This document shows, in pieces, positions 2,238 through 25,908 of a stretch of DNA of 36,644 nt; position 1 is the stretch's first letter, and each line of letters starts with the position of its first letter. The DNA lies in assembly GCA_019261985.1 (NCBI GenBank), contig JAFAQY010000002.1, positions 1 through 36,644 of the forward strand, given 5' to 3'. The notes below the pieces were generated by a model. The model ran no database searches. It was not told the origin of the DNA and saw only the letters and a program-made list of their open reading frames with translations. Made by a program: the position numbers and the translations under genes. The DNA is from Bryobacterales bacterium. Its GTDB lineage: Bacteria > Acidobacteriota > Terriglobia > Bryobacterales > Bryobacteraceae.

Positions 2238-2741
2238 TTACAGCGCGCCCGTCTCGATCATTAATCTCCTCAGCACGTCTCCGAGCTTCAGAAATCCGCT
2301 GTAGCTCGCAGGCTTGCGGAAGTACCCCGCCCCCATTTCCGTTGCGCGCTGCAGGTCCGCGGGCGCGTCTGAAGACGTTACGATGACAACCGGCACGCCG
2401 TTACACTTCGGGCTAGCTCGCAATCGCTCCAGCACTTCAAAACCGTTTCTCTTCGGAAGATTCAAGTCAAGCAAAGCAATTTGCGGGCAAGGCGCATCCG
2501 CGTGCGTCTCCGCCCGTTCTATGAACTCGAGCGCTTGCTGGCCATCGGAAACCACATGCACTTCCAGCGGCAACTTCTCTTCCCGGATCGCCTCGCGCAC
2601 CAGCAAGACGTCCGGCAGATTATCTTCAGCTAGCAGAAGATTGTAAAGCCGCAGGGCGGACGGGTTGGGCCCGTCGGGGGACGGTAAAGAAGAAGGTTGA
2701 CCCTTTCCCGACTTCGGATTCGACCCAGATTCGTCCGCCAT
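2238..2741 (-). CDS. Rcp1-like single-domain response regulator
   Basis: Receiver-only protein that accepts phosphate from the overlapping histidine kinase. The receiver starts at LYNLLLAEDN (acidic pocket), with phospho-acceptor Asp in LLDLNLPKRNG, the switch Thr/Ser in VTSSDAP and the conserved Lys in FRKPASY. There is no DNA-binding output, and the sequence resembles the Rcp1 regulators that partner phytochrome-type kinases. The start is uncertain: ATG 2741 gives about 30 residues of Pro/Ser/Gly-rich leader overlapping the kinase 3' end by 116 bases; an in-frame ATG at 2828 would make it longer, and a non-ATG start close to the receiver is also possible. It is the last gene of the TonB receptor-YfiR-kinase unit. 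Confidence 0.8.
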   Translation of the reverse strand: MADESGSNPKSGKGQPSSLPSPDGPNPSALRLYNLLLAEDNLPDVLLVREAIREEKLPLEVHVVSDGQQALEFIERAETHADAPCPQIALLDLNLPKRNGFEVLERLRASPKCNGVPVVIVTSSDAPADLQRATEMGAGYFRKPASYSGFLKLGDVLRRLMIETGAL

Positions 2742-4477: not shown

Positions 4478-5185
4478 TTACTTCTCCACGGCTTTCGCCA
4501 CGGCCAAAAGTCGCGAGCTAAGCCTTAACTCCTCATGTGCCGCCGCCGTTACATTGACGATGAACCGCACGCGGCGGTTATCCGTAACGAACGCGATGGT
4601 CCCACCGGCGCGCAGAAAACTCTCTCCCTCGCCGACTGTTAATATGTCCGGCTCCAAGCTGTGTACGATTGTGGGAAGGTCCCTTCCGGACAGCGCGACA
4701 AAAACCACCTGACACGTATGCGGCGAGGGCACTTGTGCGAGTCTCCGCACCACCAAGCGGCGGCCGTTCACCGTTGCCCCGCGCACGTCCTCGTCCAAGA
4801 TGGCTCCAAACGGGTCCCCACCCAGAACGCATAGAGTCATGGGCGCATCGGGCGTAGCGAAGGCGCTGGGCGGCCACTCGACGAACTTCGTGAAGTTCAG
4901 CAAGAAGGCAGCCTTCACTTCATATTCTGACACGCCCTGCGCACGCGCCTTCTGCGACAGCCAAGGACCGCACAAAACCGGGGCGAACACTGCAATCCCG
5001 AGGAGGGCGGTCTTCAACCGGTGGCGGACTCGAGTGCGCCATTCGCATTCGGCGGGCTTAGGGCCGCTGCAGGTCGAATCCCACGATAAAAGGCTTTTAC
5101 CACTGCCGCACAAGATAACCATGCGCCAGAACTGCCTCAAAGGCGGGCCGCCGCCGGGAATAGCCGCCCGCACTACTTCGTCCAC
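4478..5185 (-). CDS. YfiR/HmsC-like (DUF4154) periplasmic protein
   Basis: Small exported regulator. After the signal sequence (LKTALLGIAVFAPVLCGPWL, cut near ARAQG) comes the family hallmark EYEVKAAFLLNFTKFVEWP, then LCVLGGDPFG, HTCQVVFVA, LTVGEGESFLRAGG and a C-terminal INVTAA segment, all typical of DUF4154. YfiR proteins hold the CHASE8 sensor YfiN inactive in the periplasm until envelope or redox stress. The longest frame starts with a GTG that overlaps the receptor stop by 13 bases, but this leaves over 55 residues before the signal peptide; a TTG near 5011 or an ATG at 5122 could be the true start. It lies between a TonB receptor and a CHASE8 kinase, which supports a sensory role. Confidence 0.85.
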   Translation of the reverse strand: MDEVVRAAIPGGGPPLRQFWRMVILCGSGKSLLSWDSTCSGPKPAECEWRTRVRHRLKTALLGIAVFAPVLCGPWLSQKARAQGVSEYEVKAAFLLNFTKFVEWPPSAFATPDAPMTLCVLGGDPFGAILDEDVRGATVNGRRLVVRRLAQVPSPHTCQVVFVALSGRDLPTIVHSLEPDILTVGEGESFLRAGGTIAFVTDNRRVRFIVNVTAAAHEELRLSSRLLAVAKAVEK

Positions 5186-7236
5186 GTCAATGTTCCATAG
5201 CCGCTCCGCTGGACCGCTACAGGACCTCCTGTATCCTTGTACTCAAAATGGAAAGGCTGAAACAAATCGCGGCCCACTGCAGCCAATTCGAAATGCCGGC
5301 TGAACCGCCATGCGATTCGAGCGTCGCCGGTCGAGTACGCGGGAGCGCTCTGCGCCGGCAACGCGCTCACGTAGCGATACATTAAATCGAGCTGAATCGT
5401 CCTGCCGATGTCCAGCGCCGAACCTACGGTCACCTCGTGCTTGGGACTGGATCCCTCCACAATCCCGGGACCCGCGCCAAGGATAATCGTACGCGGCTGT
5501 TTCAATGCCATGTCGAGGTAAGAGTATGTTGCTCGAAGCCGCCAAAAGTCCACGGGCCGCCATTCCGGCGCGATCTCAAACCCCTGCGTGTCCCCGTACA
5601 AGTCGTTGCGGAACTGCGCGGGCAGTAACAAGTGCGGCGGAGTCGAGTTCGAGTCCGGGTCCGGGAAAGGCAAGGAGGTCTCCACATACGGAGCTCCCTC
5701 CAGATCCAGGCTAAACAAATCGTGATAGTGGTTGACGAACCCCGCAATATCGATGTAAAGACTCTTGGACAGCAGTGTCCGGTACCCAAGCTCGTACCCG
5801 TTGAGCTGCTCGTCCGCAAAAGCCGGGTTAGCATTGAACCGCGCAAAATACTCCAATCCACTGGAGTAGCCTAAGAAGCTCGAAAGGTAGAATTCCCTTT
5901 CACTTCGCGAAGGAGCGCGGAGGGAGTGGGTGAACGATGCCCAAATCGTGTGTTTCTCGCTCGGCGTGTATAAAAGCCGGATACTCGGCTCAAACTGAAA
6001 ATTCGTGAAGTTCGTCTTAAGCAGCTTGGTGCCGAAGGTGACGCTCAGTTTGTTGTTGATCAGGATAAGTTCGTCCTGGAAGAAAGCACTCCCCAGATAA
6101 TCCAAACGGTTATACGGATAAAAAATCAAACCCGATGCCACTTCTTCAAAGTGGCCATAGCTCGCTCGCGCTCCCAAACCATAAATAAGGCGGTTACGGC
6201 CGCCAACCGCCGTGTGCTGGATATAGTCGATATCGTATGTATCTCGATCTTCACCTAAATTAGGCTCATGGCGGTTGGTGCGATCGTAGTACGCCTGGAT
6301 TTGCAGGCTATCGTCGCCTTGTAGCTTACGCGTCCAGCGCGCAAGCACGTTGCCTCCCGAAAGATCCGCCGTGCCGTCCACATTCGCGGTATACGGCGGA
6401 TTATAAGTGCCGATGCCTACGCGCTCTCCATCCGACTGCCGGTAGAGATCCCCCGAAACCGTGAACGAATCGCGATCGCCTTTCGCCCAATCCGTTCGAA
6501 AGCCTGTCTGGCCTCCATGCCACTTATCGAAGTTATCCCGGTCGAAATGATACTCGGGACCGCGATTGAATCCCTTTGCGTAGAGGCGATACGTGAATCC
6601 GTTGGGATCTCCGCCGCCATAGCGCGCGTTGCCGAAACCCTGTTCGAGACTTCCGCCGCCGACCGACACATAAGGTCCCAACGTATCCTTCGTGGATTTG
6701 GTGATGATATTAATGACCCCATTCACCGCGTTCGGCCCCCAAATCGTGCCGCCCGGACCCCGGATCACTTCGATGCGATCGATGTCCTCAAGCAGCGTAT
6801 CCTGGACCTCCCAATATGTCCCGGCGAACAGGGTTGTGTATACGGTGCGGCCGTCCATCAATACCAGAACATCGCGCGAAAGCCGGGTGCCGAAGCCACG
6901 AATGCCGATCGACCACTTGTTGCTGTCGATGCGCGCGACTTCCACGCCCGGCGCAAGGCGCAAAGCTTCCGGGATCGTCGTTGCGCCGGAGCGGCGGATA
7001 TCCTCGCCGGTGATGATATAAATCGCCATAGGCGAGCGGAAGGCGGGCGCGGCTTGCTTGGTTGGAGTGGTCACTTCAATCTGCGACAGCTCTTCGAGGC
7101 TGAGATTCTTAAGCTCGCCAGGCGATGCCGCGGCGGGTGTGCCCGCCTGAGGACTGCCGGCGTGAACGTCCCGCACGAACAAAACGAGCAGCAGACAGAG
7201 AACCAAGGATGTGAAACCGCTGAAGCGTAATCCCAT
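5173..7236 (-). CDS. TonB-dependent outer-membrane receptor
   Basis: A 687-residue outer-membrane beta-barrel for TonB-driven uptake or sensing. A signal peptide (about 1-26) is followed by LSLEELSQIEVTTPTKQ, the plug domain (about 65-180: IYIITGEDIRRSGATTIPEA, VLVLMDGRTVY, IDRIEVIRGPGGTIWGPNAV, GVINIITK) and a long barrel of alternating aromatic strands. This subgroup, with the LEELSQIEVTT leader, often lies beside YfiR-like genes. No ligand can be assigned from sequence; there is no cobalamin- or siderophore-specific neighbour. It is the first gene of the signalling unit, so it may act as a ligand-gated input to the kinase as well as a transporter. The start overlaps nothing and lacks a strong ribosome binding site. 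Confidence 0.9.
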   Translation of the reverse strand: MGLRFSGFTSLVLCLLLVLFVRDVHAGSPQAGTPAAASPGELKNLSLEELSQIEVTTPTKQAAPAFRSPMAIYIITGEDIRRSGATTIPEALRLAPGVEVARIDSNKWSIGIRGFGTRLSRDVLVLMDGRTVYTTLFAGTYWEVQDTLLEDIDRIEVIRGPGGTIWGPNAVNGVINIITKSTKDTLGPYVSVGGGSLEQGFGNARYGGGDPNGFTYRLYAKGFNRGPEYHFDRDNFDKWHGGQTGFRTDWAKGDRDSFTVSGDLYRQSDGERVGIGTYNPPYTANVDGTADLSGGNVLARWTRKLQGDDSLQIQAYYDRTNRHEPNLGEDRDTYDIDYIQHTAVGGRNRLIYGLGARASYGHFEEVASGLIFYPYNRLDYLGSAFFQDELILINNKLSVTFGTKLLKTNFTNFQFEPSIRLLYTPSEKHTIWASFTHSLRAPSRSEREFYLSSFLGYSSGLEYFARFNANPAFADEQLNGYELGYRTLLSKSLYIDIAGFVNHYHDLFSLDLEGAPYVETSLPFPDPDSNSTPPHLLLPAQFRNDLYGDTQGFEIAPEWRPVDFWRLRATYSYLDMALKQPRTIILGAGPGIVEGSSPKHEVTVGSALDIGRTIQLDLMYRYVSALPAQSAPAYSTGDARIAWRFSRHFELAAVGRDLFQPFHFEYKDTGGPVAVQRSGYGTLTWTK

Positions 7237-14555: not shown

Positions 14556-15653
14556 TCAGCCCCAGACCTTGCGAGCCGTGGCGACCACTAATTCCAGCTT
14601 CCGCCACTGATCGTCAATGGAGAGCAAATTGCCCGCCGCGACCGATGCGAAACCACATTGAGGACTCAAAGCCAGATTCTCGAGTGGAACGTATCGCGCT
14701 GCTTCATCGATCCGCCGCCGCAATTCGTCCTGCGATTCGAGCTTTGGTTCTTTCGTTGTAATCAGCCCTAGCACGACGGTCTTGCCGCGAGGCACCAGCC
14801 GCAGCGGCTCAAAGCCGCCGGACCGTTCTGTGTCGTACTCCAGTAGGAACCGGTCGGCAGCCAGCGTTCCGAAGAGTTTTTCGGCGATCGCGTCATAGCC
14901 ACCCTCGGTAAACCACCGGCTGCGGCTATTGCCGCGGCAGACGTGTACGGCAATGGTTACCCGATCGCGCGAAATCCCGGCGATCGCCGCATTATCGCCC
15001 GCAATGCCCGCTTCGAATTCTCGATCCGCATCGCGCTCCGCGGCGCGCAGCTTTTCGCGCTGCGCGGGATCCAAATAGAAGGAATAATACGGTGCATCCA
15101 ACTGAATGTATTCGACACCTTCCGCCACCAGCCACTGGATCTCATCGCGAACGATCTCGACCAAGTCTGGAAGCAGGTCCGCGTGAGCCGGATAGACCTT
15201 ATCGGTTAGCCCGGGCTTGTAACTCGGCACCAGGAAGTTCGAGGGCGCGGGCAAGGTGATTTTGAACGGCCCTCCCGCGGCTTTCTTCAAAAACGGCAGC
15301 TCATATTCCGCTAATTTCCGAGTCTTTTTCAATTTGGCCCCGACAGCATTCGCCGTGCTGCCTTCCACTCCGCCTCCGGGGCCTTTCCATTCGATGGAGA
15401 CCTTCTGCGGCACGAACCCTGTCACCGCTTCCGCCATGTCAGTGAGCCACGAACCGCGCCGCATCTCGCCATCGGAGAGAATATCGATTCCGATCGCCCG
15501 CTGCCGGTCCAGCGCCGCCGAAATCGCACGGTCCTCCTCGGAGTGAAGCTGTTCCGTGCTGATTGCTCCACGCGAATTTCCGGCGTGCGCTTCAAGAACT
15601 TCAGGAGGACGAAGCAGGCTGCCCACCTGTTCGGCTTTGTAACGCCGGGCCAT
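14556..15653 (-). CDS. MetE-like (cobalamin-independent methionine synthase C-terminal) family protein
   Basis: A 365-residue TIM-barrel protein similar to the C-terminal catalytic half of MetE and to YxjG/YxjH proteins. Visible features: N-terminal EQVGSLLRPPEVLEA, DGEMRRGSWL, YIQLDAPYYS, zinc ligands His-x-Cys in VHVCRGN, and a late Cys in LSPQCGFAS. It lacks the folate-binding N-terminal half of true MetE, so folate-dependent methionine synthesis is not certain; members of this group handle methyl or thiol transfer on small molecules or remain unassigned. It starts one base after the hydrolase stop, so it belongs with the hydrolase and the flavin monooxygenase. Confidence 0.85.
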   Translation of the reverse strand: MARRYKAEQVGSLLRPPEVLEAHAGNSRGAISTEQLHSEEDRAISAALDRQRAIGIDILSDGEMRRGSWLTDMAEAVTGFVPQKVSIEWKGPGGGVEGSTANAVGAKLKKTRKLAEYELPFLKKAAGGPFKITLPAPSNFLVPSYKPGLTDKVYPAHADLLPDLVEIVRDEIQWLVAEGVEYIQLDAPYYSFYLDPAQREKLRAAERDADREFEAGIAGDNAAIAGISRDRVTIAVHVCRGNSRSRWFTEGGYDAIAEKLFGTLAADRFLLEYDTERSGGFEPLRLVPRGKTVVLGLITTKEPKLESQDELRRRIDEAARYVPLENLALSPQCGFASVAAGNLLSIDDQWRKLELVVATARKVWG

Positions 15654-15654
15654 G

Positions 15655-16437
15655 TTAACTCAGAAATCCTTCGACGAGCGCGGCCACCTTCTCGGCATGT
15701 TCAAGCGTGAACACATGCCCTGCCTGGCCCAGCATCTCTACGCGAGATCCGGGAATCCGGCTCGAGAATTCTTCGGCATACACCGCGGGCACCAGCCGGT
15801 CGTCGCTGCCCCACAACACCAGCGTCGGCGCCTTGATCCGGTGAATTCGCTTCTTCAATCCCTTATCCGGAATCGGCCACACGAACTTACCCGTGCAGGC
15901 CATGCACCAGATCATGCGAATCTGCATTTCTGGGTCCGGCGCGCCGAACATCTGCTTGGCCACCGGACCTTCCGGATCGTAGAGCAGATATTTGGGCATA
16001 TCGCTCGCGGGCGAGATGGTCATCCAGTTCGGAATTGGGGCGTCATCGCGCCAGAAGCCGATGGGGCACATCAGCACGAGTTTGCTGACGCGCTCGGGAT
16101 TACTCGCCGCGAGCTCGGCCGCCATCATGCCGCCAAATGAATGACCGATCACCGGTACGGATTTCAACCCGAGCGCATCGAACAGCTCGTAATAATACAG
16201 CACCAGGTCCCACAGGTTATCCAGATGAGCGATAGCGTCTGGATCGCCGCTGCTGGTCCCCGGATGTTCGGGTGCGTAGACAGTATGCCGCTCCGCGAGC
16301 TTATCGAGAAACGGGTCCCAGATGAGTCCGCCTGCTCCGTGCAAAAAAACCACCGGCGAGCCACTGCCGGCTACTTTCACGTTTGGCGAAATCTTGTTCT
16401 GCCAAACTGTCACGCGACGATCGGTTACCGTGCTCAT
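15655..16437 (-). CDS. Alpha/beta hydrolase
   Basis: A cytoplasmic 260-residue serine hydrolase. The oxyanion loop FLHGAGGLIWDP, nucleophile elbow GHSFGGMMAAELAA, acid loop LWGSDDRLVP and histidine loop GQAGHVFTLEHAE provide a full Ser-Asp-His triad. The start MSTVTDRRVTVWQ overlaps the monooxygenase stop as ATGA; a longer in-frame extension upstream is only the shadow of that gene. The setting, directly after a LLM flavin oxidoreductase and before a MetE-like protein, suggests that it hydrolyses an ester, lactone or C-C bond produced by oxygenation. No substrate can be named. Confidence 0.88.
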   Translation of the reverse strand: MSTVTDRRVTVWQNKISPNVKVAGSGSPVVFLHGAGGLIWDPFLDKLAERHTVYAPEHPGTSSGDPDAIAHLDNLWDLVLYYYELFDALGLKSVPVIGHSFGGMMAAELAASNPERVSKLVLMCPIGFWRDDAPIPNWMTISPASDMPKYLLYDPEGPVAKQMFGAPDPEMQIRMIWCMACTGKFVWPIPDKGLKKRIHRIKAPTLVLWGSDDRLVPAVYAEEFSSRIPGSRVEMLGQAGHVFTLEHAEKVAALVEGFLS

Positions 16438-17672
16438 GCAGCCACCCCCTCCGGCGCCTTGTGGCGCAATGCTTGCGGCCACCAGCGGTTCTCCCAGTCG
16501 TCTTCCCACATCGGACGGAGCGAGGGAGCCACTTCCTGAAAAAACAGGCTGATGTTCTTCAGCGTCAAATCGTGCGGCATCGACCCGATATGCAGCAGCA
16601 CCATCAGATTGCCGACGCGCAGAGTCTTGCACAGCTCCTTCAATTGATCCCGCACAGTAGCGGGGCTGCCGCACATCACGAATTTGTCTTCCACAAAATC
16701 TTTGAAGCGTTTTTCCTTCAAGGCAGCAAAATTGCGCGCCATCGCCGGATTCCGCACCGCGTTGGCCATGCTCTGGTAGTCCTGATGACCCGGAATCCCC
16801 AGCCACTCGGGAGGCACGTGCAGGCCCTTGTGATAGAAGTACTCGACGTGCTTGGCGTAATCTTTTTCCGCCTGGGCATCGGTTTCGGAAACCCCGACTA
16901 GTTGGAGAAATCCCATGCGATACGGATTTTCATCGCGCCCAAACTTCGCGCAGGTCTCCCAATATTTGTCCCGTACCGCGAGCGAAACGCTTTTGAACCC
17001 GAAATAGCTGAGGAAGCAATAGCAGTGATCGTGCTCCGCCGTGTATGCGAAAGTACTGGTGCTGCCGGACCCGGGAATCCACACGGGCGGATGTGGCTGC
17101 TGAATCGGCCGGGGCCAGAGGTTCACCTGTCCCAATTGAAAATATTTTCCGTTCCAGGGAAATACTTCTTTCGCCGTCCATGCCTTAAGGATCAGATCGT
17201 GTGCTTCGCGGTAGCGGTCGCGCTGTTCGATAGGAGTGATTCCGTAACAGATGTTGATGTCCATCGGCGTGCCGAGCGGAAAGCCGGCCACCAACCGGCC
17301 GCCAGAAATGGCGTCGAGCATCGCGTACTCCTCGGCGATCCGGATCGGCGGTTGCGTTCCGGGCAAGCTCGCGCCGATTTGGACCAGGGCGCAATTAAGC
17401 CCCTGTGTCGATCGGGCCAGCACCGAACCCATCATGTTAGGGCTTGGCATGAAGCCGTAAGCGTTCTGATGATGCTCGTTCGTGCAAATGCCGTCCGAGC
17501 CGGCCTTCGCCGCCGCGATCAGTTCATCGAATGTCCAGTTGTAATATTGCCCGACGCGTTTCGGATCGGCGAGCTCGTGGAACGGCGCCGTCACCCAAAT
17601 CGATTTATAACGCTTCTCGAAGTCATCGGGCAGCTCGCGATGCGGCATTAAATGAAATGTGGATATGTACAT
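16434..17672 (-). CDS. LLM-class flavin-dependent oxidoreductase
   Basis: A 412-residue luciferase-like monooxygenase that would use reduced FMN (or F420 in some relatives) and oxygen. The sequence shows the bacterial-luciferase pattern: GICTNEHHQNAYGF, LPGTQPPIRIAEEYAMLDAI, GRLVAGFPLGTPMDINI, HPPVWIPGSGS and CGSPATVRDQLKEL. The ATG at 17672 has GGAG seven bases upstream and starts the fold (MYISTFHLMPHRELPDDFE). It is the first gene of a three-gene unit with a hydrolase and a MetE-like protein. Three palindromes lie just upstream, so it is probably regulated separately from the oxidase genes before it. Confidence 0.9.
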   Translation of the reverse strand: MYISTFHLMPHRELPDDFEKRYKSIWVTAPFHELADPKRVGQYYNWTFDELIAAAKAGSDGICTNEHHQNAYGFMPSPNMMGSVLARSTQGLNCALVQIGASLPGTQPPIRIAEEYAMLDAISGGRLVAGFPLGTPMDINICYGITPIEQRDRYREAHDLILKAWTAKEVFPWNGKYFQLGQVNLWPRPIQQPHPPVWIPGSGSTSTFAYTAEHDHCYCFLSYFGFKSVSLAVRDKYWETCAKFGRDENPYRMGFLQLVGVSETDAQAEKDYAKHVEYFYHKGLHVPPEWLGIPGHQDYQSMANAVRNPAMARNFAALKEKRFKDFVEDKFVMCGSPATVRDQLKELCKTLRVGNLMVLLHIGSMPHDLTLKNISLFFQEVAPSLRPMWEDDWENRWWPQALRHKAPEGVAA

Positions 17673-17695
17673 GGCGCTCCTAGGCTGATTCGGCA

Positions 17696-17729
17696 TGATA
17701 TCAAACACGCAGGGCGTGCTTGCATGCAA
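17696..17729. promoter_or_regulatory. Three adjacent palindromes upstream of the LLM monooxygenase
   Basis: TGATATCA (17696-17703), CACGC-AGG-GCGTG (17706-17718) and TTGCATGCAA (17720-17729) follow each other within 34 bases, starting 24 bases upstream of the ATG. On the minus strand TATCAT lies at a plausible -10 position. The dense dyad symmetry in a 142-base gap suggests repressor or activator binding for the three-gene unit. Confidence 0.4.
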
Positions 17730-17814
17730 CGCAATCCAACTCCGTAAAAAGCCTTCGGCGTTCCGAGCCCGCCCGCAGAACACATCCGGCGATAGAAGCG
17801 ATGGTTACGCCACG

Positions 17815-18180
17815 CTACCGCAACGTATACAGATACATAGAAATCGATGACGCGTCCTGAGGAGTGACGCCGAGGTTGGGCATCAGCGTGTTCGGGTTTA
17901 CGGAATGCGGGTTTTCGATCCATTTTTGGAGATTGGAGGCGTCGTTCGGTAGCAGACCCGCGACGTACTGCCGCTGAGCGATGCCGGCGAGCGGGGGCCC
18001 TACCTGTCCGTGCGCGCCCGGAATTCCAGGGATAGTATGGCATGCGCCGCAGCCGTACTCTGCGATCTTGGTCCGGCCCGAATCCGGATCGACACGGTCG
18101 GCATCCCTCGCATTCCGGTTCGAAGCGCCGCCGCAGCCGAGTAAAATAAGCGCCGCACTAAAGCCGAGGAATCTACGCAT
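17815..18180 (-). CDS. Lipoprotein cytochrome c, oxidase-associated
   Basis: A 121-residue monoheme cytochrome c. The signal MRRFLGFSAALILLGCGG has a lipobox cysteine, so it is probably membrane anchored at the periplasmic face. Heme binding is by CGACH (IAEYGCGACHTIPG), with distal Met in NTLMPNLGVT. The overall pattern (GQVGPPLAGIAQR, NASNLQKWIENPHSVNP-like segment) resembles the cytochrome domain fused to oxidase subunit II. It starts at 18180 and overlaps the end of ctaG by eight bases, which places it last in the oxidase operon. It may donate electrons to, or stabilise, the oxidase. Confidence 0.88.
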   Translation of the reverse strand: MRRFLGFSAALILLGCGGASNRNARDADRVDPDSGRTKIAEYGCGACHTIPGIPGAHGQVGPPLAGIAQRQYVAGLLPNDASNLQKWIENPHSVNPNTLMPNLGVTPQDASSISMYLYTLR

Positions 18181-18979
18181 ATTCCCTGCGCCTCGCCAAA
18201 ACATCGCCCTCCCGCAGCCACAGCGCGAATAGAACTAAACCTGCCGCCAGGTAAACCACCCCCGCCGGAATCCACATGATTAAACCGCCGATCTGTTGAT
18301 CTTCCAGCGCGGAAAGTCCCCAACGCGGCGCAGTGGCGGCATACGCTGCATACCAGGGCCTGGCGGCGAACGTGAGAAGAGCGCCAAGAATGCTGGTGTG
18401 AACCGCGGTCGTGAACACGTACAGGAAGCTCGCTCCATAACTTGCGTGCCCCCGCGCGTAAAACAGCGCCCACCAAAACAGCAGAGCCGAGGTTAGGAAG
18501 CTCAGATGTTGCGCCGAATGTACCCAGTCGCTTGTAAGCGTGGCTTCAAAAAAACGCGGGATGTGCCATAGCCATAGCGCCGCGGCATGGATCCACCACG
18601 CCGCTATCGGCAATGTGAGAAATACCCAGACAGATTGTATTTCCCGCCGTTTCGACCACTGTCCGAGGACGCGCCTCCACGCCATGGGCAATCCCCACAG
18701 CATCGGCACGAGAGGTCGAGACAGCACGAGCAGCGGCGCGGCTAAAAGCATCAAGATTTCGTGCTGCGCCATGTGCGCCCAAAATAACTGCTCGCCCAAT
18801 TCGTGAATGGGCGAGATCAGCGCGATCGTAAGGAATAGCCAGCCGCTCCAGAAGCATGCAACCTGTGCGTTGGACACGCCACGCTTCCGCCGCGCGCCGC
18901 GAATGTATAAAAGAGCGGTGCCGGCCAGCGGCAGAATGATTCCGGGGTCCGTGCTCCATTCACTCCAGATCGCCCCCAT
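18173..18979 (-). CDS. ctaG: Cytochrome c oxidase assembly factor CtaG (caa3 type)
   Basis: A 268-residue polytopic membrane protein of the caa3-type CtaG family, which helps to mature the oxidase, probably by copper handling. About seven hydrophobic segments are visible. Family motifs include ISPIHELGEQLFWAHMAQHE with conserved histidines, LLVLSRPLVP, a HHAA-like region (WWIHAAALWLWHIPRFFEA), SAQHLSFLTSALLFWWAL and a late GLIMWIPAGVVYLAAGLVLF. It starts three bases after the stop of the small membrane protein and runs into the terminal cytochrome c. This is not the periplasmic Cox11-type CtaG. Confidence 0.9.
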   Translation of the reverse strand: MGAIWSEWSTDPGIILPLAGTALLYIRGARRKRGVSNAQVACFWSGWLFLTIALISPIHELGEQLFWAHMAQHEILMLLAAPLLVLSRPLVPMLWGLPMAWRRVLGQWSKRREIQSVWVFLTLPIAAWWIHAAALWLWHIPRFFEATLTSDWVHSAQHLSFLTSALLFWWALFYARGHASYGASFLYVFTTAVHTSILGALLTFAARPWYAAYAATAPRWGLSALEDQQIGGLIMWIPAGVVYLAAGLVLFALWLREGDVLARRREYA

Positions 18980-18982
18980 GGA

Positions 18983-19312
18983 TTACTCGCAACCCGTCAT
19001 CATCAAATTCGGAATCGCCTGGGCCAGGATGACGATAGCGAACGAAGCGCCGAGAATGGCCCCGCCAAGCGTCAAGGCGCGGGTGCCGGGCGTCATCGCA
19101 GAAGCGCCGTTTCGGTTGGGTGTCCATAAGGACCACGCAAGGAATCCGGCGCCTGCAGCGGCCACGAATGCGACGCCGGAAACAACGTAAAGAACCCCCT
19201 TTGCATGCGCCGAGCATGCCAACGGCGCCAGCGCAAAATTCGCCTCCAGGCTAAGGAACCAGACAAGCGGGGCGATCGCCAGCGCAGACCAAAGAATGAC
19301 GGCGGGTTTCAT
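18983..19312 (-). CDS. Small three-helix membrane protein in the oxidase operon
   Basis: A 109-residue protein with three predicted membrane helices (about 4-21, 38-62, 80-101) and a short Cys-containing end (MMTGCE). I do not recognise a named family. Its position between subunit III and ctaG, with a TAATG overlap with ctaE, suggests an accessory subunit comparable in place to subunit IV (CtaF), but there is no clear sequence match. The ATG at 19312 is preferred; a long upstream extension in the same frame is only the shadow of ctaE. Confidence 0.7.
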   Translation of the reverse strand: MKPAVILWSALAIAPLVWFLSLEANFALAPLACSAHAKGVLYVVSGVAFVAAAGAGFLAWSLWTPNRNGASAMTPGTRALTLGGAILGASFAIVILAQAIPNLMMTGCE

Positions 19313-19926
19313 TATTTGGCTCCAAGCGCGCGAGGGCCCCAATACAGCACGCCATAAAGCGGCAGCCAGATCAGGACCAGGAAATACCACGCGACGGTGT
19401 CCACATGAACCCCCAGCCGCTGCTTCTGCCCATAATGTCCGGATGCCACGATAATGATGAGGACCAACGTGAACAGCAAGTCCGCAACCATGTCGTAGGT
19501 GTGCAGAAAAAGGATGGTCCACACGATGCTTCCGTGAATATCGCTGGACCACGTAAAATTTAAGCCCCGCCATTCGATGCCTCGGAGTGCGAGGAAAATA
19601 CCTCCGAGGACAAGGTTCGAAATCATCCCGACAAGCATCCCGCGGCGATCGTCTCTCTTCGCCGCCTCGCTGGCAAGGTAGGAGCCGATGCAACTGGCAA
19701 GCAGCGGAATCAGCGCGACGGTCGGCAACATCACCGAAGGCAGCCGCACGCCCGGCGGAGGCCACACGTCCACACTCAGACGCACATAAAAATACGTCGC
19801 AATCAGCAGGCAAAGAAGGCTTCCTTCGATCACGCACATCAGCAGTTGCCCGAGCCACAGCGGCGACTTGTTGGAAATCCGGTACGGCAGCAGCCCCGAA
19901 ACGTCGAGAACGCGCGGCTCACTCAT
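19312..19926 (-). CDS. ctaE: Cytochrome c oxidase subunit III
   Basis: A 204-residue membrane protein with about five helices, matching heme-copper oxidase subunit III of the short type. Landmarks: GQLLMCVIEGSLLCLLIATYF, LLASCIGSYLASEAA, GGIFLALRGIEWRGLNF (the position of the usual QxxE/W region), HGSIVWTILFLHTYDM and VDTVAWYFLVLIWLPLYGVL with the conserved W-Y-F end. Subunit III stabilises subunit I during turnover. The start overlaps the ctaD stop as ATGA and the stop overlaps the next start as TAATG, so translation is coupled on both sides. Confidence 0.9.
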   Translation of the reverse strand: MSEPRVLDVSGLLPYRISNKSPLWLGQLLMCVIEGSLLCLLIATYFYVRLSVDVWPPPGVRLPSVMLPTVALIPLLASCIGSYLASEAAKRDDRRGMLVGMISNLVLGGIFLALRGIEWRGLNFTWSSDIHGSIVWTILFLHTYDMVADLLFTLVLIIIVASGHYGQKQRLGVHVDTVAWYFLVLIWLPLYGVLYWGPRALGAK

Positions 19927-21818
19927 GGCCGGATATCCAGAGGCTGCCGCGGCCAAAACCAGCCGATTATCCCGATCATTCCGAGCGCGGTCGCAATCCA
20001 ATATCCCGAAAATGCGAACACCGAGTAATAGAGTCCGATGCTGAAGCCGACGGCGGTCAAGAACGGCCAGATCGAATTTCCCGGCAGTACCAGACGGTGG
20101 TCCGGCTCGGCATCGAGAACTGTTGTGACCAGAACTTCGCGGCGGTCATTGCGAAGGCCGGTGACAATGTCCTTACTCTTTTCTTGGTCCCATAGCGGAT
20201 AGCGGCTCGCTACAACCGGCAGATGGATGAAACCATATGCTTGAGCCGGTGAAGAGGTGGACCATTCGAGCGTCCCCGCATCCCACGGATTGGGATCCGC
20301 TTTCGTCCCGAAGCGCCTGCTCTTGAGCACATTCGCAATAAAGCAAATTCCGCCTGCGGCGATAATGAAGGCTCCGATGGTTGCGAGAAGATTCGCCGGG
20401 CCCCACCCCATCTCCGGCACGTAGGTGTAAACGCGGCGAGGCATGCCGTGCAGACCCAGGATGTGCATCGGAAAGAAAGTGCAATTAAAACCGATGAACA
20501 AAAGCCAGAACGTAATCTTCCCAAGCTTCTGATCTATCATTCGGCCAGTGAATTTCGGGAACCAATAATGGAATGCGCCGAACAGCGGAAACAACGTGCC
20601 GCCGATCAGGACATAGTGAAAATGCGCGACCACAAAGAATGTGTCGTGCGCTTGCAGATCGAGAGGAATCGATGCCAGCATTACGCCGGTCAGGCCGCCC
20701 ATCACGAAAATGAACAGAAAACCGAATATGAAATGCAGGCCGGCGGTTGGTTGAAGGCGGCCGCTCCAAAGGGTCGCCAGCCAGCAGAAGATCTGCACTC
20801 CGCTGGTTACCGCGATCATCATGCTCGCGGCGGTGAAATAGGCTTCGCCGATTTGAGGGAGGCCTGTCGCGAACATGTGATGCACCCACAAGCCGAACGC
20901 TATAAAACCATTGGCGACGAGCGAAAGCACCAGCGCCGGATAGCCGATCACGGGACGCCGTGAAAAGGCCTCGATAATCGACGAAGCCATTCCGAGCGCC
21001 GGGATAAAGATGATGTAAACCTCCGGATGGCCGAAGAACCAAAATACGTGCTGGTAAAGCAGCGGATCGCCGCCTTCCGCCGGGTTCACGAAGTGAGTTC
21101 CTATGGTGCGGTCATTCAGAAGGAAAATCGTACTCGCAATCATGACCGCGGGCATGGCGAAAATGATCATGAACGATTGGACGAGCATCGCCCAACAAAA
21201 CATCGGGAGCCGGTTAAGCGTCATCCCGGGTGCGCGCAAACGCAAAATCGTCACGATCAGCTCGACGGCAACGCACAATGCGGAGATTTCCGTGAAGGTG
21301 ATCATCTGCGCCCACACGTCCACTCCCTTGCCGGGCGAGAACTGCGGGCCGGATAGCGGCGAATAGGCAAACCACCCCGCATCCGGCATCGTGTTGGTGA
21401 ACGCCGCGGCGTACAGCAGCAGCCCACCCGCCAGATATATCCAATAACCGAATGCATTTAATCTCGGGAATGCGACGTTCCGAGTCCCGATCATCAACGG
21501 GACCAGGTAAACGCCCATGCCTTCCATTACAGGCACCGCGAACAGGAACATCATCGTAGTTCCGTGGACGGTGAAGATCTGGTTGTATCGCGCCGGATTC
21601 AGGAACGTATTTTCCGCCGAAGCAAGCTGAATCCGCATCATGAGCGCTTCGATTCCGCCGAGCAACAGAAAAATAAAAGCGGTCACGATATAACGCATTC
21701 CGAGCTCTTGATGCGTCGTCACGGAAATCCACCCCAGCGGCCCGGGCCTGTTCTTCCACGCGCGGGCGAGTTCTTCCGCCTGCTGCGGCTCAGCCCGCAA
21801 CTCCTCAAGAGCGGTCAT
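19923..21818 (-). CDS. ctaD: Cytochrome c oxidase subunit I
   Basis: Catalytic heme-copper subunit, 631 residues, reducing oxygen to water. Low-spin heme ligands: His85 (IFTVHG) and His401; heme a3 ligand: His399 (VVAHFHY); CuB: His264 with cross-link Tyr268 (GHPEVY), His313 and His314 (WVHHMF). Glu266 of the D-channel end is kept, as in A1-type oxidases. However, the D-channel entry Asp is Asn114 (GTRNVAFPR) and the K-channel Lys is Gln342 (TSGVQIFCW). A C-terminal extension carries two extra helices (about 580-625), as seen in caa3-type enzymes. It is coupled by ATGA overlaps to ctaC and ctaE. Confidence 0.95.
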   Translation of the reverse strand: MTALEELRAEPQQAEELARAWKNRPGPLGWISVTTHQELGMRYIVTAFIFLLLGGIEALMMRIQLASAENTFLNPARYNQIFTVHGTTMMFLFAVPVMEGMGVYLVPLMIGTRNVAFPRLNAFGYWIYLAGGLLLYAAAFTNTMPDAGWFAYSPLSGPQFSPGKGVDVWAQMITFTEISALCVAVELIVTILRLRAPGMTLNRLPMFCWAMLVQSFMIIFAMPAVMIASTIFLLNDRTIGTHFVNPAEGGDPLLYQHVFWFFGHPEVYIIFIPALGMASSIIEAFSRRPVIGYPALVLSLVANGFIAFGLWVHHMFATGLPQIGEAYFTAASMMIAVTSGVQIFCWLATLWSGRLQPTAGLHFIFGFLFIFVMGGLTGVMLASIPLDLQAHDTFFVVAHFHYVLIGGTLFPLFGAFHYWFPKFTGRMIDQKLGKITFWLLFIGFNCTFFPMHILGLHGMPRRVYTYVPEMGWGPANLLATIGAFIIAAGGICFIANVLKSRRFGTKADPNPWDAGTLEWSTSSPAQAYGFIHLPVVASRYPLWDQEKSKDIVTGLRNDRREVLVTTVLDAEPDHRLVLPGNSIWPFLTAVGFSIGLYYSVFAFSGYWIATALGMIGIIGWFWPRQPLDIRP

Positions 21819-22876
21819 TGGAGGCTCTCCAAATACTCAAGAAGTGGCTGCATATCGGTGGGGTCTAAAGGTACCGTGGCCATGCGCGTTCCCGGCTTTA
21901 TGTTTTGCGGATCGGCGATCCAGCCCGCGAGGTTGCCCTTATTATTGGGAAGCGTTCCGGCAGCGATGCTCAATCTGCTGCCGAAGTGGGTCAAATCGGG
22001 GCCAACTTGCCCGTTAGCGGTTGTGCCTTGGATGGAGTGGCAAAGCACGCAGGCATGACTAAGAAACACCTCTTGGCCGCGCTGTTGCAAATCATCCGAA
22101 GGGGCTGCGCCGGGCCGAAGCTGCGTCCCTATCCACTGTTGAAACTGCGATTCCGGTTCGGCCACCGTCCACAGCGCCATGTGTGCGTGCTGAAGCCCGC
22201 AGAACTCTGCGCACTGCCCCCGATACCGTCCGGGTTCGTTGGTTTCAATCCACTGCGTCGTCACTCGGCTAGGAATTAGATCGCGCTTGCCTTGCAGGCC
22301 GGGAACCCAGAAGCTATGGATCACGTCATTGGATAATCCGCGGATCAAGACGGGCCGGCCCACCGGGATGTGGAGTTCGTTCGCGGTCACGACGATCCTG
22401 GTGGGATCGTCATTCAGATAACGCACAAACCACCACCACTGATTACCGGTAACCTCAACGACGAGCTCATTACCGCGGCCGCCAGGCGCGGAGATCTCCT
22501 TTCCCACGCCCACACTGACGACCACGAGTCCAAAGAGGATCAGGATGGTCAATACGGAAGCCCCGGCAATAGCTGTTTTCAGGCGGCGCTGCGCGGCTTC
22601 ATCTTGCGTCGATTGGCCGCGCTGGAAGATGGATGCCACAGCAATTGCGATGACGATCAGAAAAATGATGCCGAGCAACCAGAAAAAAAACACGCCGAGC
22701 GATTTGATCTGACTCGCATGCGTTCCTCCGGGTGCAAGGGATGACTGTTGTCCAAAAGCGGAGGCTAGACTGAAGAGCATCGTGGCGCAGGTTGCCAGCT
22801 TGGGGCGCGTTCCCGATTCGCCTGGCCAGCGCCGGTTCGCAACCGGCGCGCAGGATGGCATCCTGCCCCACGTCAT
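21815..22876 (-). CDS. ctaC: Cytochrome c oxidase subunit II fused to cytochrome c (caa3 type)
   Basis: Electron-entry subunit, up to 353 residues. Two helices flank about 55-80 and 95-120; the cupredoxin domain follows with the CuA set: His in SNDVIHSFWVPGLQG and Cys-x3-Cys-x3-His-x2-Met in GQCAEFCGLQHAHM. A C-terminal cytochrome c domain carries CVLCH and distal Met in GTRMATV. The fusion makes this a caa3-type oxidase. ATG 22876 overlaps the previous stop (ATGA), but an internal ATG at 22780 (MLFSLASAFG) would give a cleaner signal segment, so the start is uncertain. It accepts electrons from the periplasmic cytochrome or dehydrogenase genes just upstream. Confidence 0.95.
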   Translation of the reverse strand: MTWGRMPSCAPVANRRWPGESGTRPKLATCATMLFSLASAFGQQSSLAPGGTHASQIKSLGVFFFWLLGIIFLIVIAIAVASIFQRGQSTQDEAAQRRLKTAIAGASVLTILILFGLVVVSVGVGKEISAPGGRGNELVVEVTGNQWWWFVRYLNDDPTRIVVTANELHIPVGRPVLIRGLSNDVIHSFWVPGLQGKRDLIPSRVTTQWIETNEPGRYRGQCAEFCGLQHAHMALWTVAEPESQFQQWIGTQLRPGAAPSDDLQQRGQEVFLSHACVLCHSIQGTTANGQVGPDLTHFGSRLSIAAGTLPNNKGNLAGWIADPQNIKPGTRMATVPLDPTDMQPLLEYLESLQ

Positions 22877-23388
22877 CTCGGCTCTCCCTCGCTCTTCGGA
22901 AGGATCGTCCTCGAACTCTGCTCGATCGTGTCCAGCCGTTCCGGCGTTGCAGATCTGGGCTCCAGATTATTCATTGACCGGATATAGGTCACTAATTGCC
23001 AGATCTGATATTCGGGAATTTTCGCGCCCCATGAAGGCATGCCGTTGGGCCGTCCCTTCACGATCGTGTCGAACAGATTGGCCGGTTCGTTGCCATAAAT
23101 CCAGTGATCCTTGATCAGAGGCGGACCGATCGCGCCGCCGCCGTTGGCATGGCATCCCGTGCAGTTGTACCAGCCAAACAAGCGCTGCCCTTCGGAAATC
23201 GCATACGCATTGCCTTGGAATGGATTAGTGACACTTGCGCGAGGCGCGCCGCCGCCGGGTAGAATTTGGCTCTGAATAGCCGCGTCTCCGAACACGACAA
23301 CTTTCGCGGGTGACGGACGGAGATCCCTCCGTTCTCGCTCGCACGCGGTCAGCGCGAGGAGGAAACAGCCGATTGCGGCAAACCGCAT
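22873..23388 (-). CDS. Lipoprotein cytochrome c (XoxG-like position)
   Basis: A 171-residue monoheme cytochrome c. The signal MRFAAIGCFLLALTACERE ends in a lipobox. Heme binding is at NCTGCHANGGG, with distal Met in RPNGMPSWGAKIPEYQIWQL, a pattern typical of small cytochromes that serve PQQ dehydrogenases or oxidases. ATG 23388 is chosen because GGAGGA precedes it at good distance; an in-frame ATG at 23454 is inside the upstream gene. It lies between the XoxJ-like gene and ctaC, so it is the natural electron shuttle from the dehydrogenase to the oxidase. Equating it with XoxG is by position and type, not by proven orthology. Confidence 0.88.
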   Translation of the reverse strand: MRFAAIGCFLLALTACERERRDLRPSPAKVVVFGDAAIQSQILPGGGAPRASVTNPFQGNAYAISEGQRLFGWYNCTGCHANGGGAIGPPLIKDHWIYGNEPANLFDTIVKGRPNGMPSWGAKIPEYQIWQLVTYIRSMNNLEPRSATPERLDTIEQSSRTILPKSEGEPR

Positions 23389-24179
23389 TTCGCGCGATCC
23401 TCCTTCAATTGAGGGATTCGGTATTCTCTGAGCAGGCCGGCGATGGCTTCGCATTCGCGCGAAAGTATTCCGTCGATTTCCGATTGCAGCGCATTGTTGC
23501 CATTACGGACGCCCGCGGAAACGCTGTATGTGAACGGCACCGCTAAAAACATTGCGGGAGATACCGGCGTGACATCCAGCGGCACATCCTGAAGCTTTGA
23601 AAAGTATCCGGCGATCGGCCCCCATGCGATCGCCACGTCGATATCCCCTTTGGCTACTGCTTCGATCAGCCTTGCCGGCGGGTTCGTCTCATCCGCTGCC
23701 CCATACATGCTGAACCCGAATAACCGGCTTGCGAGCCCGCGCCGAACCAGCAGGTACGCCGGCGGCGCATAATCGTCGCCCGCCACATGCAGGCCGATTT
23801 TTGCTTCGTTCAGGCGGGGATCGTTCAAGGACGAAATGTTGAAGTGGCGATCGGATCGCGTCACGAATACATAGGTCGAACAGTAATAAGCCCGCGTTGG
23901 CAAAACAGAGTCGATGGTAGAAGGAACGCCCATGGCCGCGTCGCATAGGCCGGCTCCCAGCGAATTTTCCGGAAAGCCCTTCCTCTGCGGCACCCACGCG
24001 TAACTTAGTGGGACGCTCAGATCTTTCGCGATTAGCTCTGCCAGCCGGTTCTCAATTCCCTGCCCTGCCCGGTTCGAAAACGGCAGATTGTTGGGGTCGG
24101 CGCAGACTCGAAGCTCGCGGCCATCGGCCGCCATGGCAGCGACGCATACCCACGCGAGGCTAAGGCAGCGAAAAAACAT
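23349..24179 (-). CDS. xoxJ: XoxJ/MoxJ-like periplasmic solute-binding-fold protein
   Basis: A 276-residue exported protein of the family associated with quinoprotein dehydrogenases. Signal MFFRCLSLAWVCVAAMAADG is followed by LRVCADPNNLPFSN, the hallmark start of the family, then GFGIELA-like ENRLAELIAKDL, CDAAMGVPSTIDSVLPTRAYY, AKIGLHVAGDDYAPPAY, GDIDVAIAWGPIAGYFS and a C-terminal IDGILSRECEAIAGLLREY. XoxJ is thought to bind and activate XoxF in the periplasm. The start overlaps the xoxF stop by 20 bases, and the 3' end overlaps the cytochrome gene by 40, which supports translation coupling. Confidence 0.88.
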   Translation of the reverse strand: MFFRCLSLAWVCVAAMAADGRELRVCADPNNLPFSNRAGQGIENRLAELIAKDLSVPLSYAWVPQRKGFPENSLGAGLCDAAMGVPSTIDSVLPTRAYYCSTYVFVTRSDRHFNISSLNDPRLNEAKIGLHVAGDDYAPPAYLLVRRGLASRLFGFSMYGAADETNPPARLIEAVAKGDIDVAIAWGPIAGYFSKLQDVPLDVTPVSPAMFLAVPFTYSVSAGVRNGNNALQSEIDGILSRECEAIAGLLREYRIPQLKEDRAKCGLPQSAVSSSR

Positions 24180-25908
24180 ACAACATTCCGCCACTGGTTG
24201 TGTACTTTGGGAGATCCGCCATCGCATTTAAAAATCCCAGCGCCCCGGTGCCATCGTTCGCGTTCAATCCCCCTGCGACAATGGCGCCCGACCACCCGCC
24301 GACCCCCGACAAAATCGCCACATATTGTTTTCCGTCCGGGCCTTTATAAGTAACCGGCTGCCCGATAATCCCCGAGCCCGTCTTGAACTGCCACAGCACC
24401 GCGCCATTATGCGCGTCCAGAGCTTTGAACCAGCCGTCCATTGTTCCGTAAAACACTACATCCCCGGCTGTGACCATCGCGCCGCTCCAGGCCGGAAACA
24501 TTTCTTTGACGGTCCAGACGGTCTTCGCCGCGACAGGATCCCAGGCGCTGAACTCACCTCGATGCCCGCCCGGACCGGCATACATGCGAACATTCGCGCC
24601 CACAAAAGGTGTCCCCGCAATGTAATTGGCTTGTATACCTTGAAACTCCATACAGAGGTTGTTGTGGGGGATGTAAATGTAACCGGTTTTCGGCGAATAG
24701 GCCGACGGCTGCCAGTCTTTGCCTCCGGGGGCCGCTGGGCAAATGTCGCGAACGGTTTTGAATCCCGTGATCTTCGATGGGACGTATGAAATTCGTCCTG
24801 TCTTTAAGTCCACGGAATCGCTTGTATTCTGATAAGCGAACGGCTCGGCTGAGATCACTTCGCCGGTACTGCGATCCATAAGATACAAGCGCCCATTGCG
24901 GTCCGGATGCGCCAGGACCTTCCGCATCTTCCCGCCGATATTCAGATCCAGCAGGATGTTTTCGTTTACTCCGTCGTAATCGTGATCGTCATGAGGGTTG
25001 TATTGATATGCCCAGATCGCTTCGCCAGTGTCTGGCCGCCGGGCAAAAAGGGTGGAGGTCCATTTGTTATCGCCGGGCCGCTGATCGGAGTTCCACGGGC
25101 CTGGGTTCGAGGTGCCGTAATAAATTAGGTCGAGATCGGGATCGTAGGAAATCCAGCTCCACGCGGCTCCGCCCCCGATTTTCCATTGCTCTCCCTGCCA
25201 CGTCTTCAGGCCCAAATCCGGACTACGGTCGCCCGCGTAAAACGGCTTGAAATTGGATCCAATCAGGATGTCTTTGTCGGGGCCTGTCGAGTACGCGCGC
25301 CATACGATCTTTCCGCTATCCGCATCCAGAGCGGCTAACCACCCGCGAACGCCAAACTCACCCCCGCTGTTTCCGACAATGACTTTGCCTTTGACCACGA
25401 GAGGCGCCATCGTCATCGATTCCCCCAAATTGATATCGCCTAATGTCGTCTTCCAAACCTGTTTCCCGGTGTTGGCATCCACTGCGACAGTGTGCATATC
25501 GAGGGTGTTGTAGTAAATCCTGCCCTTGTAATACGCACCTCCGCGATTCACCACATCGCAGCAGGCGACACCTTGCGAGCTCGGAGAAACATGCGGGTCG
25601 TAGGTCCATTTCGACGCGCCCGTTTTCGTTAAATCAAGCGCGTACAGCAGATTTGGAAACGGCGTCACGATGTACATCGTGTTGTTCACGATCAAGGGAG
25701 CCGCTTCGTGTCCCCTGGTCAGGCCGGTTGAAAACGTCCACGCGACTTTCAGGTTTTTTACATTCGATGTATTAATCTCCGTGAGCGTGCTGAAGCGCGT
25801 GCTCGCGTAGTTTTTGGCCGGCATGGTCCACTGGCCATCGTCGGTCTGATTTTGTATTTGGGCTGCGGCTGAAATGCCGATAAATCCCACCAACACCCTG
25901 ATAAACAC
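24160..25908 (-). CDS. xoxF: XoxF-type lanthanide-dependent PQQ methanol/alcohol dehydrogenase
   Basis: A periplasmic eight-bladed quinoprotein of about 582 residues that oxidises methanol or other primary alcohols. A short export signal (FIRVLVGFIGISAAAQ) starts from GTG 25908; no ATG fits. The vicinal disulfide that stacks on PQQ is Cys116-Cys117 (GVACCDVV). Metal ligands are Glu184 (GGEFGVRG), Asn268 (TSNPGPWN) and catalytic Asp310; Asp312 in HDYDGVNE is the extra acid that marks rare-earth enzymes, where calcium MxaF has Ala. There is no fused cytochrome domain. It leads an operon with xoxJ, cytochrome c and a caa3 oxidase. No PQQ synthesis genes are in the window. Substrate is inferred from family. 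Confidence 0.9.
   Translation of the reverse strand: MFIRVLVGFIGISAAAQIQNQTDDGQWTMPAKNYASTRFSTLTEINTSNVKNLKVAWTFSTGLTRGHEAAPLIVNNTMYIVTPFPNLLYALDLTKTGASKWTYDPHVSPSSQGVACCDVVNRGGAYYKGRIYYNTLDMHTVAVDANTGKQVWKTTLGDINLGESMTMAPLVVKGKVIVGNSGGEFGVRGWLAALDADSGKIVWRAYSTGPDKDILIGSNFKPFYAGDRSPDLGLKTWQGEQWKIGGGAAWSWISYDPDLDLIYYGTSNPGPWNSDQRPGDNKWTSTLFARRPDTGEAIWAYQYNPHDDHDYDGVNENILLDLNIGGKMRKVLAHPDRNGRLYLMDRSTGEVISAEPFAYQNTSDSVDLKTGRISYVPSKITGFKTVRDICPAAPGGKDWQPSAYSPKTGYIYIPHNNLCMEFQGIQANYIAGTPFVGANVRMYAGPGGHRGEFSAWDPVAAKTVWTVKEMFPAWSGAMVTAGDVVFYGTMDGWFKALDAHNGAVLWQFKTGSGIIGQPVTYKGPDGKQYVAILSGVGGWSGAIVAGGLNANDGTGALGFLNAMADLPKYTTSGGMLYVFSLP

Follow-up and report, generated by a model that had tools for sequence, protein, structure and literature searches.

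Altered proton-channel residues in the A-type oxidase encoded beside a probable XoxF3-type methanol dehydrogenase

What kind of terminal oxidase is encoded together with a XoxF-type methanol dehydrogenase, and how closely do the two belong together? We addressed this question in a 36,644-nucleotide stretch of a Bryobacterales bacterium (Acidobacteriota; assembly GCA_019261985.1, contig JAFAQY010000002.1), here called the window, in which nine minus-strand genes run head to tail from xoxF to a terminal lipoprotein cytochrome c (25908-17815; reading frames checked in the sequence) and include those for oxidase subunits I, II and III. The linkage of xoxF to an oxidase is itself already published and not new: the sections of PMC10875860 (BMC Biol 2024) drawn on here report XoxF3 with CoxI-III, CtaG, CytC, XoxG and XoxJ in all 12 acidobacterial genomes having XoxF systems, and the XoxF3 clusters they describe from Acidobacteria and Gemmatimonadetes share these genes with the window. 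Those sections do not mention proton channels, and the open-access papers searched, within the portions available to us, hold no mention of oxidases without the K-channel lysine (K-less oxidases) beside xoxF. What is apparently new is the loss or replacement of proton-channel residues in the XoxF-type oxidase, a feature absent from an earlier note on this DNA. We consider it probable that the cluster is a XoxF3 methanol-oxidation respiratory module with a variant A-type oxidase.

Proton-channel residues of the XoxF-type oxidase

According to the textbook view of A-type oxidases, as set out in the part of PMC8239185 used here, the D- and the K-channel each begin and end at an essential ionisable residue and have none in between. 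Subunit I of the window, encoded by ctaD (21818-19923, minus strand), belongs to the COX1 family and matches TIGR02891 at 689.9 bits (cut-off 671). We numbered it from the ATG at 21818 and aligned it to 6adq and, via a Sphingomonas homolog (L203), to P. denitrificans 1ar1, whose numbering is used below for aligned sites. The alignment places Gln342 (20793-20795) at the site of the K-channel lysine (Lys354), Asn114 (21477-21479) at the D-channel entrance (Asp124) and a clade-specific Glu177 (21288-21290) on helix IV (Gly190); Glu266 (21021-21023), at the end of the D-channel (Glu278), is conserved.

Like caa3-type A1 oxidases (TIGR02891; 1ar1, 6adq), the enzyme has the six heme- and copper-binding His, the active-site Tyr, the Glu and Tyr of the HPEVY motif, and a CuA motif and fused heme c domain in subunit II; it differs from them by Lys354->Gln, Asp124->Asn, Gly190->Glu, Asn113->Val, Ser193->Ala and Asn199->Glu. 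Asp124 and Lys354 both stand in the A1 residue list of PMC3084760, in the portion consulted, and judged by these residues the oxidase is a variant A-type enzyme, not a standard member of the A1 caa3 group. The six His and the Tyr are kept in all 68 XoxF-type CtaD sequences examined for them, and the CuA motif is retained in the CtaC rows that reach that region. With metal ligands and tyrosine conserved, this looks like a working enzyme rather than a decayed one.

We compared CtaD across a final set of 110 rows. Comparison rows came from 24 of 35 matches in ten acidobacterial genomes (loci were obtained for 30 of the 35), from the window's own genome and from chance finds in loci, and 17 oxidases were added from 12 cluster-carrier genomes (48 matches, loci for 30, of which 12 were already in the set). 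A second Methylobacterium copy (L191) and the long-branch L088_6887, whose Lys and Asp are canonical, were left out of the tree. The window's own genome holds four COX1 genes, the other three being 36-48% identical to the cluster CtaD; XoxF-type CtaD proteins of other genomes are 55-79% identical to it. XoxF-type sequences formed a single 68-row clade in a 94-row tree, with a Shimodaira-Hasegawa-like approximate likelihood ratio test (SH-aLRT) support of 100, and this clade contained rows from two genomes without adjacent xoxF (G377, G401). The 110-row tree contained a K-less clade of 78 rows (SH-aLRT 100), made up of 69 XoxF-type rows (SH-aLRT 94), four fused CtaD-CtaE oxidases and five with HPWVY in place of HPEVY. 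By label, 66 of the XoxF-type rows have xoxF as a neighbour or come from genomes that hold both genes, and for 3 neither applies.

Throughout the 78-row clade Lys is absent from the Lys354 site, which is Gln in 71 rows, Ala in 3, Thr in 2 and Ile in 2; within its XoxF-type part it is Gln in 67 and Ile in 2. The D-channel entrance is non-acidic in 64 of the 69 XoxF-type rows (Asn 43, Ser 12, Thr 4, Gln 3, Ala 2 and, on the acidic side, Asp 4 and Glu 1). Glu occupies the Gly190 site in all 69, and Ile, Val or Leu the Asn113 site in 64; the Ser193 site is Ala in 55, Gly in 10 and Ser in 4, and the Asn199 site is Glu in 37 and mixed in the remainder. The Glu278 and Tyr280 sites are unchanged in all 69, and Asn is found at the Asn131 site in 61. 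The 32 rows outside the clade have Lys (27) or Ile (5) at the Lys354 site, Asp (31) or Glu (1) at the Asp124 site, Gly (27) or Ile (5) at the Gly190 site, Asn113 in 30 and Asn199 in all. Ser193 is a listed D-channel residue in the consulted portion of PMC3084760, and since Gly190 precedes it by one helix turn, Glu177 most likely faces the D-channel. The Glu of CtaC at the K-channel entrance appears unconserved, in an alignment that is gappy there, and was not used as evidence.

If the root is set among the far rows (the tree method itself infers none), loss of the lysine would map to the base of the 78-row clade and the helix-IV Glu would have arisen with a 73-row branch (SH-aLRT 95), while loss of the entrance Asp appears confined to the XoxF-type part. 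As the first two changes would predate the XoxF-type part, they were presumably not caused by XoxF, and the rebuilt entrance would be the mark of the XoxF-type oxidases. We accordingly rejected the idea that loss of the lysine is unique to XoxF-linked oxidases, the fused and HPWVY types being K-less too. The fused caa3 oxidases (L198, L199, L201, L209) have Gln at the lysine site and the helix-IV Glu, and at some of them the small protein described below is encoded; they differ in keeping the D-channel Asp, in having subunits I and III in one frame and in not lying beside xoxF in the fetched stretches. Near one fused K-less caa3 oxidase (L216, about 10-15 kb) are genes that by eye resemble those for a glucose-methanol-choline (GMC) dehydrogenase with a small subunit, possibly one more case of a dehydrogenase that has an oxidase to itself. 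Five acidobacterial oxidases (L178-L182) combine HPEVY and the entrance Asp with Ile in place of both the K-channel lysine and the helix-IV Gly; they seem to have lost the lysine separately.

By inference from these residues, a single rebuilt proton channel with reduced or absent pumping is most likely. The rival that survives best is that the changes are neutral, water and Gln carrying protons along the old routes and pumping proceeding as in other A-type oxidases. It draws on the constancy of the terminal Glu (69/69) and of Asn at the Asn131 site (61/69), on the Thr351 and Ser291 sites, which remain mostly polar, and on the B-type oxidases, in which, according to the portion of PMC3084760 used, other polar residues stand in for those of the A-type K-channel. 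Yet with Gln in 67 of the 69 XoxF-type rows, Lys missing from all 78 rows of the clade and the helix-IV Glu in every one of the 69, over five phyla, the changes look selected, and four D-channel positions (the Asn113, Asp124, Ser193 and Asn199 sites) are altered together. We regard neutrality as unlikely, although it deserves to be taken seriously.

Linkage of xoxF and the oxidase across genomes

The earlier note had proposed a search of relatives for xoxF near ctaD, and the linkage is there. Eighty named loci, the best of 248 confirmed ones, span Acidobacteriota, Gemmatimonadota, Verrucomicrobiota, Pseudomonadota and Myxococcota; the cluster of L077 belongs to a cultured organism, Methylobacterium oxalidis. 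Where at least 6 kb of downstream DNA was available (55 loci), ctaD lies downstream of xoxF on the same strand in 49, an oxidase stands elsewhere in the locus in four (L057, L061, L063, L075), and two have no oxidase (L048, L051); the other 25 named loci were too short to judge, with ctaD nonetheless visible in 9. For 47 loci, 8.5 kb or more of downstream sequence was available: cytochrome A was found in 46 of them and xoxJ in 41, ctaC, ctaD and ctaE are each present in 43, and 40 loci have the small gene, as many as have ctaG. Counts for cytochrome B were not used, its query also matching the CtaC heme domain. Because this gene order recurs in many loci, the arrangement is not due to chance.

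Searches of whole genomes gave a similar picture. In 200 genomes of the family (xoxF at E <=1e-210, ctaD at E <=1e-200), xoxF was found in 19 and XoxF-type ctaD in 15, all of them within the 19, and 181 genomes had neither. Ten of the 15 genomes have the pair on a single contig; in the other five (G080, G174, G177, G186, G203) xoxF and ctaD lie on different contigs. In 396 genomes of the phylum (xoxF at E <=1e-200, ctaD at E <=1e-190), 13 had xoxF, 12 had ctaD and 11 had both, on one contig in 10 of the 11; two genomes (G221, G249) have a distant xoxF (55-56%) alone. Among the 23 genomes of the window's genus, just one other had a XoxF match at E 1e-200 (58% identity), which makes the distribution of the cluster patchy.

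The earlier note had also stated that XoxF usually occurs with only xoxG and xoxJ. This fits more distant XoxF genes (47-52% identity), most of whose loci hold XoxF and a XoxJ homolog: no oxidase was found in the fetched flanks of the nine checked in cluster-bearing genomes, some of these stretches stopping at contig ends. These genes presumably belong to XoxF5 and similar types. The statement fails for XoxF3, whose oxidase linkage is in print (PMC10875860).

An alternative is that the two are neighbours by history only: the whole respiratory chain would use the oxidase as an ordinary alternative to its other terminal oxidases, and its place beside xoxF would be coincidental. XoxF-type oxidases do occur without an adjacent xoxF: one phylum genome has the oxidase alone (G377), another has both on separate contigs (G401), and P. 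graminis has a second copy. The notion that the oxidase always stands beside xoxF was rejected on these cases, which indicate that it can serve something else. In addition, at least one further COX1-family match was found in the window's own genome and in all 22 genomes searched for paralogs. This reading has more difficulty with the 181 family genomes without a xoxF match, none of which has a XoxF-type ctaD at the cut-offs used, with the conservation of gene order over five phyla, and with the matching divergence of the two proteins: over 47 linked loci, XoxF and CtaD distances correlate at r 0.70, against a maximum of 0.14 in 2000 permutations. Such a correlation is expected for co-inherited genes, and shared host ancestry alone would also produce one. 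We think it improbable that proximity is all that joins the pair.

A second kind of K-less oxidase has evidently also been paired with xoxF, since xoxF is accompanied by an HPWVY oxidase, beside it in L057 and L075, some 5 kb away in L061 and upstream of it in a partial locus from the window's own genus (L145); no xoxF was found near the HPWVY oxidases of L200 and L208. Two loci (L065 and L074, about 9-11.5 kb) carry a tandem pair of xoxF genes upstream of the same oxidase cluster, and an Opitutus metagenome-assembled genome (L031, about 6-13 kb) has two XoxF-type ctaD genes in one cluster.

The small cysteine-pair protein

Between ctaE (19926-19312, COX3) and ctaG (18979-18173, a Caa3_CtaG copper assembly factor) lies a minus-strand gene (19312-18983) for a membrane protein of 109 residues with Cys33 and Cys108. 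Its AlphaFold2 model, with a mean predicted local distance difference test (pLDDT) score of 90.1, has three helices (3-35, 39-67 and 75-104), and counting helices would put both cysteines on the same side of the membrane. A pattern requiring both cysteines is fitted by 72 of 87 candidate frames between ctaE and ctaG, and from 50 distinct fitting frames we built a profile. The two cysteines are present in 71 and 73 of 74 aligned profile matches, figures that are partly circular given the Cys-selected frames behind the profile; independently of that selection, 8 of 9 printed matches from HPWVY, fused and L093 loci have both.

A profile match lies downstream of 68 of 75 testable K-less oxidases, including HPWVY and some fused ones, and of none of 31 other oxidases, for 29 of which the downstream DNA covered was only about 1.4-1.5 kb long. 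The protein also accompanies XoxF-type oxidases that lack an adjacent xoxF (L153, L155, L220). Found with K-less oxidases even where xoxF is not beside them, it goes with the oxidase, and most likely serves the K-less type as an additional subunit or as an assembly factor for copper or disulfides. The reading of a vesicle-transport-like protein of the XoxF system, made from a predicted structure in the consulted sections of PMC10875860, can appeal to the gene's presence in the majority of XoxF3 clusters (40 of the 47 loci with sufficient flank) and to a weak PRA1 match in 2 of 40 members (best E 0.00057), a resemblance from which the published "vesicle-mediated transport" name may derive, but it is hard to credit for a protein that also follows K-less oxidases away from xoxF, is absent from the 31 others and matches no solved fold in a Foldseek search (best E 1.6).

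The gene cluster and its proposed electron route

All nine frames are open, with boundaries, starts and stops as given here. Behind xoxF (25908-24160, GTG start) follow xoxJ (24179-23349), encoding a periplasmic binding protein that matches the MoxJ-like model TIGR03871 at 258.6 bits (cut-off 212), cytochrome A (23388-22873), a lipoprotein cytochrome c in the XoxG position, ctaC (22876-21815), whose product combines COX2 and Cytochrom_C domains and falls just under the CoxB cut-off of TIGR02866 (145.8 vs 147.7 bits), and then ctaD, ctaE, the small gene and ctaG as above, with cytochrome B (18180-17815, Cytochrom_C), the terminal lipoprotein cytochrome c, closing the run. Cytochrome A, CtaC and cytochrome B each have one CxxCH motif. 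Seven of the eight junctions overlap, by 20, 40, 4, 4, 4, 1 and 8 bases in gene order, and the only gap, of 3 bases, separates the small gene from ctaG. The earlier note's account of nine overlapping or nearly touching genes is thus accurate, and family profiles and heme motifs confirm the identities it gave them. Its further suggestion of control as one unit fits the gene spacing, which hints at a single transcript; a promoter scan was uninformative, yielding a single promoter-like site where shuffled sequences averaged 5.4, as was a terminator scan (16 sites against 14.0). The three genes that it noted as following on the same strand (14556-17672: a luciferase-like monooxygenase, an alpha/beta hydrolase and a MetE-like protein) were rejected as part of the system: they are set off by 142 bases, and at the cut-offs used none of them was matched in any of the 80 named loci. 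NRAMP genes, present in many clusters according to the consulted sections of PMC10875860, were not found among the window proteins scanned.

XoxF matches the PQQ (pyrroloquinoline quinone) methanol/ethanol dehydrogenase model TIGR03075 at 664.5 bits (cut-off 480.05). Asp312 (24973-24975), which the earlier note had correctly pointed out, accompanied by Asp310 (24979-24981), aligns with the extra lanthanide Asp of the XoxF structures 4mae, 6oc5 and 6dam; it lies two residues past the catalytic Asp, and the Glu and Asn ligands are also present. The lanthanide Asp occurs without exception in the 95 XoxF rows extracted at 59% identity or more, a set that includes some genes more than once, cut differently. 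XoxF probably uses a lanthanide. The XoxF3 label is inferred from the cluster shared with PMC10875860, not from a tree. Cytochrome A scores below the cut-off of the MoxG model TIGR03872 (35.6 vs 147.8 bits), and with so weak a match its putative role rests on its XoxG position.

In the proposed scheme, a periplasmic XoxF3 that uses PQQ and probably a lanthanide would oxidise methanol or some other alcohol. The lipoprotein cytochrome that occupies the XoxG position would take up the electrons and hand them to the heme c and CuA of CtaC, from where they would reach the active site of CtaD and reduce oxygen to water, without involving quinone or a bc1-type complex. The protons consumed in this reaction would most likely all enter through one rebuilt channel with Glu177 and Glu266, and pumping would be weaker or absent. 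A dedicated route from alcohol to oxygen, as the earlier note had it, gains support from comparison (gene order in five phyla, co-occurrence, a distinct CtaD clade), with the electron path itself conjectural. More broadly, we tentatively propose that XoxF3 enzymes across five phyla own a class of A-type oxidase in which the K-channel lysine is gone, the D-channel is rebuilt on a new buried Glu and a dedicated Cys-pair subunit is added, a single-channel enzyme with reduced or absent pumping that would be matched to electrons entering at cytochrome c.

Several observations weigh against the proposed XoxF3 respiratory module, beginning with the XoxF-type oxidases that lack an adjacent xoxF. Loss of the lysine and gain of the helix-IV Glu are shared with the four fused oxidases away from xoxF, five oxidases outside the 78-row clade have replaced Lys by Ile, and Glu186 of the window (Asn199 site) is variable among relatives. 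The XoxF-type rows were gathered mostly via xoxF loci, and the survey of other oxidases was small. Four xoxF-positive family genomes had no ctaD at the cut-off: in G012 XoxF is 58% identical and a different oxidase lies upstream, in G208 ctaD is cut by the contig end, G192 has ctaC and no ctaD match before the contig ends, and G101 has matches to ctaG and a cytochrome and none to ctaC, ctaD or ctaE. Finally, pqqC had no match in the window's own 98.8% complete genome in a search that matched 4 of 6 genomes tried (itself among the six), and PQQ is therefore probably imported, unless pqqC falls in an assembly gap. The same genome has 73 matching stretches of PQQ-dehydrogenase type. As for the G101 locus (L151, about 5.9-7.9 kb), matches to ctaG and cytochrome B come after its xoxF (78%), and a second ctaG-like match lies on the opposite strand; a deletion, a rearrangement or a misassembly may account for this.

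Elsewhere in the window, at 4478-7236 on the minus strand, a YfiR-like protein of the TOL_0243 family (above cut-off) lies beside a TonB receptor that resembles TOL_0244 (559 bits, below the cut-off of 645), and a CHASE8/PAS histidine kinase (2626-4476) adjoins the pair.

A K-less clade found in five phyla, departing in the same way from the textbook channels, offers a set of natural experiments on proton movement and pumping. It bears on the energy yield of rare-earth methanol oxidation in soils, and a small protein named after a doubtful resemblance gains a concrete, testable role.

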